Shown here one piece after another: positions 42,724-55,642 of a stretch of 64,000 bases of DNA. Source of the DNA: Azotobacter salinestris (GTDB lineage: Bacteria; Pseudomonadota; Gammaproteobacteria; Pseudomonadales; Pseudomonadaceae); the NCBI RefSeq assembly GCF_009363155.1, contig NZ_CP045302.1:1425001-1489000 (forward strand). Reading direction: 5' to 3'. The notes beneath the pieces were generated by a model, which worked only from the letters and a program-made list of their open reading frames with translations, was not told the origin of the DNA and made no database searches. A program made the position numbers and the translations under genes. Position 1 is the stretch's first letter; each line of letters opens with the position of its first letter.

Positions 42724-43311
42724 TCAGCGGTTTTCCAAGCTGGCCGCACGGGCATAGGGCAAGGCACTCTCAGCCCCATTCACAGCCGACTGCTGCACAT
42801 GCTGACGAAGGTACGCCGGAAGTCTTTTTTCATGCCACTCCGAATCCTTACCCTCCTCCTTGGACGCGGGCTCCTGCGATTGTGCGGCACCTTCGGTGTA
42901 GCCGGCCAGGATCGGCGTTCCCTGCACCTGGGGTACCGACAGGGAGGGTTGCGGCGCATGCTGGGCTAGTTCGGTACCACTCATCTCGCTCTGGTTATAC
43001 AGACGAACGCCCGCCAGCACCGCGACAGTCACCGAAGCCGCTACCGCTATGCGACCAACCACTCCCCACGAGAAGATCCGGGCTTTGGGTGCCGCCTCTG
43101 CGGCCAGGGCGGCCGAGACACCAGCAGCAATATCCAAACGCGTCTCCAACAACTCCTTGTGCATGGCCGCGCGCGCCAACTGATAACGCGACCAAGTAGC
43201 GCGCAACTCGGCATCATCCCTGCTGGCAGCGAGCACACGATGCAACTCCACCTCGTCCGCCTCGTCATCCATCACTGCGGACAGCGATTCATACAGGGCT
43301 TCTCGACTCAT
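42724..43311 (-). CDS. mucA: anti-sigma factor MucA
   Basis: This 195-residue inner-membrane protein has an N-terminal sigma-binding domain (ESLSAVMDDEADEVELHRVL), one membrane helix near 85-103 (GRIAVAASVTVAVLAGVRLY), and a periplasmic tail for MucB. It appears full length, so this copy is not a mucoid mucA truncation. It is 32 bp after algU in the same operon. Confidence 0.94.
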   Translation of the reverse strand: MSREALYESLSAVMDDEADEVELHRVLAASRDDAELRATWSRYQLARAAMHKELLETRLDIAAGVSAALAAEAAPKARIFSWGVVGRIAVAASVTVAVLAGVRLYNQSEMSGTELAQHAPQPSLSVPQVQGTPILAGYTEGAAQSQEPASKEEGKDSEWHEKRLPAYLRQHVQQSAVNGAESALPYARAASLENR

Positions 43312-43343: not shown

Positions 43344-43925
43344 TCAGGTTTCCTGCAGTAATGGCTGCAGCGCTTTGTCTATTGCCTCACGCGCTCGAAA
43401 GATGCGTGAACGTACAGTTCCAACCGGACATTGCATGACACTGGCAATATCTTCGTAACTCAACCCATCGAATTCGCGCAGCGTCAGTGCCGTACGCAGA
43501 TCTTCCGGCAGTTGCTGGATGGTTCGATGCACCGTGGCCTCTATTTCATCTCGCAGCAAAGAGCGCTCCGGCGACTCGATATCCTTGAGAGCATGATCAC
43601 CCTCATAAAACTCGGCATCCCCTGCGTTCACATCGCTGTCGGGAGGACGTCGCCCACGAGCCACCAGATGATTCTTCGCAGTATTGATGGCAATACGGTA
43701 CAGCCACGTATAGAAAGCGCTGTCACCGCGAAAATTGCCTAGCGCACGATAGGCCTTGATGAAAGCCTCCTGAGCGACATCCTGAGCCTCATGGGCATCA
43801 TGCACGAAACGCACGATCAAACCGAGAATCTTGTGCTGGTATTTCAACACCAGCAAATCGAATGCTCGCCTGTCACCACGCTGCACCCGCTCGACCAATT
43901 GCTGATCCTGCTCCTGGTTTAACAT
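43344..43925 (-). CDS. algU: extracytoplasmic-function sigma factor AlgU (RpoE)
   Basis: The 193-residue sigmaE-class factor drives envelope-stress and alginate genes, and in Azotobacter also encystment. Region 2 (HDAHEAQDVAQEAFIKAYRAL) and region 4 (GLSYEDIASVMQCPVGTVRSR) are intact, and GAGGAG lies 5 bp before the ATG. The reading frame is whole, but an IS lies 215 bp upstream in the promoter region, which may lower or change expression. Confidence 0.96.
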   Translation of the reverse strand: MLNQEQDQQLVERVQRGDRRAFDLLVLKYQHKILGLIVRFVHDAHEAQDVAQEAFIKAYRALGNFRGDSAFYTWLYRIAINTAKNHLVARGRRPPDSDVNAGDAEFYEGDHALKDIESPERSLLRDEIEATVHRTIQQLPEDLRTALTLREFDGLSYEDIASVMQCPVGTVRSRIFRAREAIDKALQPLLQET

Positions 43926-43984
43926 GAGTACTCCTCGTTAAACCCTAGGGGGCATAGCATCAGACGCCGGATCACCTTGTTTCC

Positions 43985-44011
43985 ATTGACACGGGTATTA
44001 AGCAAAAGTTC
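43985..44011 (-). promoter_or_regulatory. proximal sigmaE-type promoter of algU
   Basis: The minus strand has GAACTT (44006-44011), a 16-bp spacer and TCAAT (43985-43989), close to the AlgU/sigmaE consensus GAACTT-N16-17-TCnnA. It lies 60 bp before the algU start and on the algU side of the IS, so autoregulation through this promoter could survive. Confidence 0.6.
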
Positions 44012-44136
44012 CCCCCCCAAGCGCGGCCTCCCGCAGAAAGCGAACAACTCCGAATGGATCAAGTAACCTGAACTACCCGCAATGGGAATAGTCACTCACT
44101 GGGCTAGCCCTGCTCCTCTCTGAGCTTTCACTGTCG

Positions 44137-44140
44137 CTAA
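44137..44140. repeat. IS target-site duplication, left
   Basis: CTAA directly precedes the IS left end and matches CTAA after the right end. Four-base YTAR duplications are characteristic of IS5-family insertion. Confidence 0.85.
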
Positions 44141-45334
44141 GGAAATCCTGAAAAAGACTTCCCGATTCTGGTGAAATACACCCGCTCCCTTGTCCGAGTT
44201 TCCCGATGAAGCAACTGTCCTTCGCCGATGCCGAGTATGCCGGCAAGCGCAAGCAGACCCGCCGCGAGCGCTTCCTGCTCGAGATGGACCAGGTGGTGCC
44301 GTGGCAGGGGCTGATCGCCCTGATCGAGCCCTACTATCCCAAGGGCGAAGGCGGTCGGCCCGCCTACCCGCTGGCAGCCATGCTGCGCGTGCACCTGATG
44401 CAGAACTGGTTCGGCTACAGCGATCCGGCGATGGAGGAAGCGCTGTACGAAACCACTCTCCTGCGCCAGTTCGCCGGCCTGAGCCTGGAGCGCATCCCGG
44501 ACGAAACGACCCTCCTCAACTTCCGTCGCCTGCTGGAGAAGCACGAACTGGCCGGGGGAATACTGGAGGTGATCAACGGCTATCTGGGCGAGCGCGGACT
44601 GTCGCTGCGCCAGGGCACCATTGTCGACGCCACCCTGATCCATGCGCCGAGCTCGACGAAGAACAAGGACGGCAAGCGCGACCCGGAAATGCACTCGACG
44701 AAGAAGGGCAACCAGTACTACTTCGGCGCAAAAGCTCACATTGGTGCCGACGCTGAGTCGGGTCTGGTGCACAGCGTGGTGGTCACGGCAGCCAACGTGG
44801 CAGATGTCACCCAAGTCGACCAACTGCTGCATGGCGAGGAAAACGTAGTGAGTGCCGATGCGGGCTATACCGGCGTAGAGAAGCGCCCCGAGCATGAAGG
44901 TCGGCAGGTCATCTGGCAGGTCGCGGCCCGGCGCAGTACCTACAAGAAGCATGGCAAGCGTAGCGCCTTATACAAAGCGATCCGCAAGATCGAGAAGGCC
45001 AAGGCCCAGGTACGAGCCAAGGTCGAACATCCGTTCCGCGTGATCAAGCGCCAGTTTGGCTACACCAAGGTGCGCTTCCGGGGATTGGCCAAAAACACGT
45101 CACAGTTGGTGACGCTGTTCGCCTTGTCGAATCTGTGGATGGCGCGCCGATATTTACTGGCGAATGCAGGAGAGGTGCGCCTGTAATGCGGGAAACGGTT
45201 GCTGCGACGTGCTCGCGGCAGCTAAAAAACGCAGAAACGAGCGGGTGATCTGATCGTTTTTGATCGATTCTCCGCTTTCAAAGTCGGCGGGGGGCTGAAG
45301 TCAGCCAGAAATACATGACTACTTCAGACCATCC
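44141..45334 (+). mobile_element. complete IS5-family insertion sequence
   Basis: This 1,194-bp element is flanked by CTAA duplications. The ends are imperfect inverted repeats: left GGAAATCCTGAAAAAGAC, right (minus strand) GGATGGTCTGAAGTAGTC, and both continue to TTCTGG about 25 bp in. It carries one intact transposase. It occupies the algU-nadB intergenic region with the transposase pointing to nadB, away from algU. Confidence 0.9.
44206..45186 (+). CDS. IS5-family transposase
   Basis: The 326-residue DDE transposase has an N-terminal DUF772-like domain (GRPAYPLAAMLRVHLMQNWF). The catalytic residues are Asp in IVDATLIHAPSS, Asp in SADAGYTG, and Glu in RAKVEHPFRVIKRQFG with the Y(2)R(3)E(6)K-like spacing. 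It is full length with no frameshift, so the element may still be active. Confidence 0.93.
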   Translation: MKQLSFADAEYAGKRKQTRRERFLLEMDQVVPWQGLIALIEPYYPKGEGGRPAYPLAAMLRVHLMQNWFGYSDPAMEEALYETTLLRQFAGLSLERIPDETTLLNFRRLLEKHELAGGILEVINGYLGERGLSLRQGTIVDATLIHAPSSTKNKDGKRDPEMHSTKKGNQYYFGAKAHIGADAESGLVHSVVVTAANVADVTQVDQLLHGEENVVSADAGYTGVEKRPEHEGRQVIWQVAARRSTYKKHGKRSALYKAIRKIEKAKAQVRAKVEHPFRVIKRQFGYTKVRFRGLAKNTSQLVTLFALSNLWMARRYLLANAGEVRL

Positions 45335-45338
45335 CTAA
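45335..45338. repeat. IS target-site duplication, right
   Basis: CTAA directly follows the IS right end and repeats the left flank. Confidence 0.85.
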
Positions 45339-45366
45339 CCGGTATGCCATCCTGTTGCAACCGGTT

Positions 45367-45393
45367 ATTGACTCCTGAACGTGTGCAGAGTTC
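45367..45393 (-). promoter_or_regulatory. distal sigmaE-type promoter of algU, cut off by the IS
   Basis: The minus strand has GAACTC (45388-45393), a 16-bp spacer and TCAAT (45367-45371), the same spacing and -10 as the proximal algU promoter. It points toward algU but now faces the right end of the IS, 1.4 kb from the gene. Confidence 0.5.
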
Positions 45394-45478
45394 CCCTCAC
45401 AGCTCTGCGGCCAGGTCGGCGATTGTGCCAAGCCCGACTTTCTCCTACTAGCCTTTGTTTTCCCCGGATTTTTTCGAC

Positions 45479-47095
45479 ATGAGCCAACATTTTCAGCATG
45501 ATGTTCTGATCATTGGCAGCGGCGCGGCCGGCCTGACCCTGGCACTCAACTTGCCGCCCCACCTGCACATTGCCATCCTGAGCAAGGGAGAGCTCTCCAA
45601 TGGCTCGACCTTCTGGGCTCAAGGCGGCGTGGCCGCCGTACTGGACGACACCGACACCGTAGAGTCTCATGTCGAGGATACATTGATCGCCGGCGCCGGC
45701 CTCTGCCGGGAAGATGCTGTACGCTTCACGGTGGAGCATAGCCGGGAAGCCATCCAGTGGCTGATCGAACAGGGCGTTCCCTTCACCCGCGAAGACCCTA
45801 CGGCACGCGACGACGGCGGTTTCACATTTCACCTGACCCGCGAAGGCGGCCACAGTCACCGGCGCATCATCCATGCCGCAGATGCCACCGGTGCCGCCAT
45901 CTTCAAGACCCTGCTCGCACAGGTACAAACGCGACCGAACATCGAACTGCTCGGACAACACGTCGCCATCGACCTGATCACTGAAAGCAAGCTCGGCCTG
46001 CCGGGCAGGCGTTGTCTCGGAGCCTACGTCCTCAATCGCCAGAGCGGCGAAGTCGACACCTACAGTGCACGCTTCACCGCGCTGGCCTGCGGCGGAGCAG
46101 CCAAGGTCTACCTCTACACCAGCAATCCCGACAGCGCCTGTGGCGACGGCATTGCCATGGCCTGGCGCGCCGGCTGCCGAGTGGGCAACCTGGAGTTCAA
46201 CCAGTTCCACCCGACCTGCCTTTATCATCCGCAGGCCAAGAACTTCCTGATCACCGAAGCCTTGCGCGGCGAGGGCGGGCTGCTCAAGCTGCCCAACGGC
46301 GAGCGCTTCATGCCCCGCTTCGACCCACGAGCCGAACTGGCTCCTCGGGACGTCGTCGCACGCGCCATCGACCATGAAATGAAGCGACTCGGGATCGACT
46401 GCGTGTATCTGGACATCAGCCACAAACCGGCGACCTTCATCCAGTCGCACTTTCCAACCGTCTACGAGCGCTGCCTGGACTTCGGCATCGACATTACCCA
46501 AGCGCCCATTCCGGTGGTCCCTGCCGCCCACTACACCTGCGGTGGCGTCGTCGTCGACAACCATGGACGGACCGACGTTCCCGGCCTCTACGCCATCGGC
46601 GAAACCAGCTTCACTGGCCTGCATGGCGCCAACCGCATGGCCAGCAACTCCCTTCTCGAGTGTTTCGTCTATGCGCGCTCGGCAGCCCTCGACATGCTTG
46701 AACAGATGGCGGATATCGGGCTGCCGAGCAATCTGCCAAGCTGGGATGCCAGTCAGGTCACCGACTCCGACGAGGATGTGATCATCGCGCACAACTGGGA
46801 CGAGTTGCGGCGCTTTATGTGGGACTATGTCGGCATCGTACGCACCAGCAAGCGCCTGCAGCGCGCGCAGCACCGAGTCAAGCTACTGCTCGACGAAATC
46901 GACGAGTTCTACAGCAACTACAAGGTCAGCCGCGACCTGATCGAGCTACGCAACCTGGCCCTGGTTGCCGATCTGATGATCCGCTCGGCCATGCAACGCC
47001 ATGAAAGCCGAGGCCTGCACTACACCCTCGACTATCCGGACCTGCTGCCCGAAGCCCGCGACACTATTCTGGTGCCGACCACCTACGTCGGCTGA
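45479..47095 (+). CDS. nadB: L-aspartate oxidase
   Basis: This 538-residue FAD enzyme oxidises aspartate to iminoaspartate, the first step of de novo NAD synthesis. The FAD motif [14 protein letters not shown], the substrate loop [19 protein letters not shown] and the C-terminal FAD contact [12 protein letters not shown] are present. The start at 45479 gives MSQHFQHDV. It is divergent from algU across the IS-bearing region and overlaps ygfX at its 3' end by 32 bp. Confidence 0.96.
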
Positions 47096-55467: not shown

Positions 55468-55614
55468 TGTCGATCTCTCCTAGTTTTTTCTATTGTTTCA
55501 GCAACCGATGCCTTCATCGGCCCGTTAGTAAAAGCCGGCACTGCCGGTTGCGGCCCGCGGTGCGGGACCGCAGAAGATAGCCTGCCGTCCGACAGGAACC
55601 TTGCGGTGTCCGCT

Positions 55615-55642
55615 AGATGTGGGCACTCAAAAGCATTTCAAG
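55615..55642 (-). promoter_or_regulatory. sigma32 heat-shock promoter of groESL
   Basis: The minus strand has CTTGAAA (55636-55642), a 12-bp spacer and CCCACATCT (55615-55623), fitting the sigma32 consensus. It lies about 150 bp before groES. The rest of the 427-bp gap to fxsA holds no recognised gene; the leader is GC-rich with short inverted repeats. Confidence 0.7.

Follow-up and report, generated by a model that had tools for sequence, protein, structure and literature searches.

The algU locus and its insertion sequence

In the stretch of 64,000 nucleotides of the Azotobacter salinestris genome that was analysed here (the window), the control region between algU and its divergent neighbour nadB contains a complete insertion sequence (IS) of 1,194 bp enclosed by two copies of the tetranucleotide CTAA, as read directly from the sequence (Table 1). 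The transposase gene runs in the same direction as nadB and points away from algU; 215 bases separate one end of the IS from the ATG of algU, and the start ATG of nadB lies 144 bases past the other end. The algU frame is intact, its product matches the RpoE model TIGR02939 with 324.6 bits (cut-off 236.15), and the frames of mucA, mucB, mucC and mucD are open alongside it. MucA matches the N- and C-terminal RseA domains of Pfam above their cut-offs and scores below the cut-off against the NCBIfam RseA model (41.8 bits, cut-off 263). Elsewhere in the window, a Pseudomon-groES RNA element was detected at positions 55504-55616 on the reverse strand (89.9 bits).

Table 1. Features of the algU-nadB region (window coordinates)
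Feature	Position	Strand	Basis
mucA, anti-sigma factor, open frame	42724..43311	-	ORF list, Pfam, relatives
algU, ECF sigma factor, 193 aa, intact	43344..43925	-	ORF list and profile matches
Proximal AlgU-type motif GAACTT-N16-TCAA (P3-like), between IS and algU	43986..44011	-	motif search and alignment
Left target-site duplication CTAA	44137..44140	.	direct read
IS5-family insertion sequence, 1,194 bp	44141..45334	+	the genome has at least 31 such copies, full length and nearly identical
Transposase, 326 aa	44206..45186	+	ORF list and profile matches
Right target-site duplication CTAA	45335..45338	.	direct read
Distal AlgU-type motif GAACTC-N16-TCAA (P1-like), IS now between it and algU	45368..45393	-	motif search and alignment
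nadB, divergent neighbour	45479..47095	+	start chosen by comparison with relatives

The transposase, the 4-bp duplication and the terminal inverted repeats all place this element in the IS5 family. The transposase matches the NCBIfam model NF033581, 'IS5 family transposase', with 356.4 bits (cut-off 140), as well as the Pfam domains DDE_Tnp_1 and DUF772, both above their cut-offs, and the ends of the IS, GGAAATCCTGAAAAAG and GGATGGTCTGAAGTAG, form an imperfect inverted repeat in which 10 of the first 16 bases match when counted by eye. A 4-bp, YTAR-like target duplication is a trait of the IS5 subgroup; the CTAA of the algU copy fits this pattern, and a count by eye over the 28 copies with equal flanks described below gives 18 that fit and 10 that do not. 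Thus, the initial annotation, which had reported a complete IS5-family element of this length, with CTAA duplications, upstream of an algU gene with an intact frame, is borne out by both the sequence and the profile matches.

A probably recent insertion by a multicopy element

A search of the element's own genome (5,292,366 bases in 3 contigs of 4,929,889, 321,600 and 40,877 bases) yielded a minimum of 31 copies that are full length and 100% identical (rounded), the algU copy among them; this is a lower bound because 40 of the 151 candidates were scored. Among these 40 candidates there were 46 matches overall, the remainder consisting of one copy that reaches position 1181, one apparently split copy, two longer copies with 87-88% identity and short partial matches. 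Identical 4-bp flanks were found at 28 of the 30 copies examined, and the unequal flanks of the two exceptions (L001 and L021) may have arisen by recombination between copies. Likewise, 28 of 30 sites lack a coding-like frame running through the joined flanks, according to a heuristic that uses GC thresholds of our own setting, was applied to 30 of the 31 full-length copies and is hardly informative for the 5 of 30 loci that belong to tandem pairs, where the flank is the neighbouring copy. There are three such head-to-tail pairs (G000:C2:195829-198221, loci L029/L018; 527633-530024, L015/L016; and 2453267-2455658, L007), in each of which the spacer is exactly 4 bases long and identical to the 4 bases on the outer sides, as would be expected if one copy had inserted into the target duplication made by the other.

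Alignment of the locus with other Azotobacter genomes revealed a site that is empty, exactly to the base, in all three other species examined (loci L031, L032 and L033), including the corresponding intergenic site of A. vinelandii CA (L031). These relatives read CCAA where the lineage of the window has CTAA. Since the site is empty in all three, the insertion is lineage-specific, and the large number of near-identical copies combined with the empty site implies recent movement, such that the algU copy probably inserted during a recent burst of multiplication in this genome. The copy number, the equal flanks and the empty site confirm a real element and exclude chance. In the finished genome of A. 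vinelandii (G003), scoring of the candidates gave a single match over the full length of the IS, with 84% identity. This genome also contains a 588-base fragment with 100% (rounded) identity to the window IS (G003:C1:2456475-2457062), which suggests that there may have been recent exchange between the species. As for the draft genomes G001 and G002, in 180 and 100 contigs, respectively, copy counts are not usable because repeats collapse in drafts; 40 candidates were scored in each of the four genomes, and G001, G002 and G003 are not counted as independent of the Azotobacter loci compared here, G001 and G002 probably belonging to the species of L032 and L033. A transposase search of viral contigs returned 33 loci, none of them bearing on the algU question.

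The window appears to come from a fourth species and not from A. vinelandii, judging from MucA, which is 89% identical to its counterpart in A. vinelandii CA, 86% in A. chroococcum DSM 2286 and 74% in A. beijerinckii DSM 378. A separate observation concerns A. salinestris AZT-41, for which the excerpt of the genome announcement gives one contig of 5,292,277 bp with a GC content of 56.11% (PMC12797993). This size is oddly close to that of the genome containing the window, and the GC content is far from the value of 65.6% given for the species in the excerpt of another report (PMC12282048), so the AZT-41 sequence is possibly a reference-guided assembly.

AlgU-type motifs on both sides of the element

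The consensus recognized by AlgU is quoted as GAACTT-N16/17-TCtgA (PMC10651043, in excerpt). In the 64-kb window, the pattern GAACTY-N16/17-TCNA has 4 matches against 0.77 expected, a number that was reached in none of 100 shuffles, and two of these matches lie in the gap between algU and nadB, one on each side of the IS. Both are close to the consensus, the distal box being GAACTC rather than GAACTT. When the IS is left out of the window sequence, both motifs are present, with spacers of 16 or 17, in 7 of 7 aligned loci, that is, the window and 6 of the 14 relative loci (L031, L032, L033, L034, L039 and L040), which represent A. vinelandii, A. chroococcum, A. beijerinckii, P. aeruginosa PA7 and two Stutzerimonas loci. 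This conservation of the distal motif suggests that it matters. In P. aeruginosa, the algU promoters P1 and P3 are described, in the part of the source available, as strictly requiring AlgU and as being raised on heat shock (PMC13104619); the motifs of the window are paired with P1 and P3 by position and not through mapped start sites.

The IS ends 33 bases from the -10 box of the distal motif and 129 bases from the -35 box of the proximal motif. The latter is untouched and remains 61 positions from the algU start codon; for the former, the IS has increased the distance to the algU ATG from about 245 to 1,443 positions. A scan of positions 43920-45500 for sigma-70 sites on both strands gave 0 sites, with 0.6 expected by chance, so that a basal algU promoter was not located, but this strict scan is a weak test because it returned none for nadB or the transposase either. 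In the same interval there are 2 terminator-like sites against 1.3 expected, both within the IS on the strand of algU.

A second copy upstream of algD

Another copy of the element (L071:17431-18624, G000:C2:3812930-3814123), with 0 mismatches and ATAA duplications, is located about 780 bases upstream of algD, and its left end faces algD just as the left end of the window copy faces algU. The alginate operon of this genome is open from algD to algA (L071), AlgF and AlgE having been identified by family search and the other alginate genes named from order and sequence. An AlgU-type motif before algD, GAACTA-N16-TCTTA, the counterpart of which is published for A. vinelandii in the excerpted part of PMC10651043, is found on the gene side of the IS, at a distance of about 420 bases; because this motif is untouched, an effect of this copy on algD looks unlikely. 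The alignment of the algD upstream region with A. vinelandii (L106) stops 276 bases before the IS, which sits in unalignable DNA; the alignable flanks are 422 bases apart in L107, and 706 bases apart in L106 (L108 could not be judged), which is too short for a full-length copy, and the algD-upstream copy is therefore absent from both. That two of at least 31 copies adjoin alginate genes is suggestive at most, being a post hoc observation on an element whose copies mostly lie outside coding-like frames.

Proposed effect on algU and alternative explanations

So what could an insertion at this particular point do to algU? The scenario that we favour, with moderate confidence, is that an IS5-family element, recently multiplied in this Azotobacter genome, transposed into the algU-nadB region, duplicating CTAA, and landed between two putative AlgU-type promoters of algU. 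With the P3-like motif in its original place relative to the start codon, algU could still be made; a transcript starting at the P1-like motif, by contrast, would have to run through the whole IS, in antisense orientation to the transposase gene. The net effect predicted is that basal AlgU is kept and that the positive-feedback induction of algU-mucABCD is weaker. In this scenario, the activity of the putative promoters, a loss of read-through and any phenotype are inferred, and the terminator-like sites in the IS, no more numerous than expected by chance, do not demonstrate such a loss. The suggestion in the initial annotation that algU expression may be reduced rather than lost is thus plausible, and the split between the promoters would provide it with a concrete mechanism.

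The main rival to the promoter split is a neutral insertion, in which a basal promoter together with the proximal AlgU-type one would suffice for algU, and the IS would be there simply because intergenic DNA tolerates insertions. The prevalence of sites without a coding-like frame among the copies (28 of 30, the tandem pairs included), the untouched proximal motif and the open frames from algU through mucD all agree with such neutrality, but the presence of the distal motif in every aligned locus suggests that what has been displaced is important, and we regard neutrality as possible but the less probable outcome. The opposite effect, an increase of algU expression from an outward promoter at the end of the IS, is very improbable here. 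Insertion elements in general can supply outward promoters, but the transposase reads away from algU and the sigma-70 scan detected nothing on either strand, a result tempered by its strictness, given that it also missed any site for nadB and the transposase.

A more drastic scenario would have algU strongly silenced, yielding a non-mucoid, encystment-defective strain selected in laboratory culture in parallel to A. vinelandii OP. Such a parallel gains some appeal from the fact that algU of A. vinelandii CA has been inactivated by an independent insertion, of an IS from another family, and from the open alginate operon of the genome analysed here, in which no other cause of non-mucoidy is evident. 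Yet neither the AlgU frame nor the proximal motif is damaged, and in the portions of the papers that our literature search covered, nothing was said about whether A. salinestris KACC 13899, the probable strain of the window, is mucoid; we deem strong silencing improbable. The initial annotation went further and proposed that the IS of the window may itself be the algU lesion carried by laboratory strains of A. vinelandii that are non-mucoid. That an algU insertion exists in that lineage agrees with the CA sequence and with the excerpts of two reports, which describe an insertion of about 1 kb close to the sequence that encodes the N terminus of AlgU in Av-DJ and CA (PMC4465626) and an interruption of algU by an insertion sequence in strain OP (PMC4824345). 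The identity of the two insertions, however, has to be rejected on species, element and site, and we assign it practically no probability. In A. vinelandii CA, the algU frame is interrupted at codon 55 (insertion at L031:3515-4556) by an element of 1,026 bp with 8-bp TTCATCAA duplications and terminal bases that match at 24 of 24 positions, the transposase of which belongs to the IS1595 family (193.3 bits, cut-off 75; Pfam DDE_Tnp_IS1595). Its sole match to the window IS is 11 bases long (E 0.71). The window IS lies outside the algU coding sequence, is a different element in what appears to be a different species, and differs in family, position and duplication; the intergenic site of CA being empty, the identification is refuted at the base level for that strain. 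The CA element being different in family and site, the insertion in the window is a separate event.

A broader possibility takes these observations jointly: algU of A. vinelandii was lost to an IS1595 element, and identical IS5 copies precede algU and algD in the genome studied here. Alginate and AlgU control might then be a repeated target of insertion sequences in cultured Azotobacter, with two autoregulatory promoters split, the feedback tuned and the sigma factor kept in the present case, and AlgU might even drive, from the distal promoter, an RNA antisense to the transposase. We consider this wider reading distinctly unlikely as it stands.

Whichever of these scenarios applies, the intergenic IS5 copy before algU makes a new, natural insertion allele of a type already known, one that physically separates two putative autoregulatory promoters of algU. 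The tempting misidentification with the lesion of the A. vinelandii OP lineage is corrected, and the algU lesion of A. vinelandii CA now has an element family and base-level coordinates. Furthermore, studies of alginate, encystment or stress in which the genome of the window serves as the species reference deal with an algU control region that differs from those of the three other Azotobacter species examined.

Comparison with known elements and loci

Similarity across 99-100% of the IS, with the same transposase family, is shared with copies named ISPre1, ISPst7, ISAch1 and ISPa16 and with unnamed copies on A. chroococcum plasmids. Among the best 40 of 764 records, the identity to the named copies does not exceed 84.4% and that to the plasmid copies reaches 89.2% at most; two further records in the 90-95% band are presumably partial because they are absent from those best 40. 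By what we take to be ISfinder practice, the element of the window would count as a separate named IS.

At the level of the locus, the insertion in A. vinelandii CA, DJ and OP is likewise an IS at algU in Azotobacter, but the 1,026-bp IS1595-family element of CA sits inside the gene and breaks it, whereas the IS5-family element of the window is intergenic and leaves the gene intact. The arrangement of the regulatory motifs, in turn, resembles that of P. aeruginosa, where P1 and P3 likewise comprise one distal and one proximal AlgU-type motif, as aligned with PA7; unlike in P. aeruginosa, the two motifs of the window are separated by an IS of 1.2 kb.
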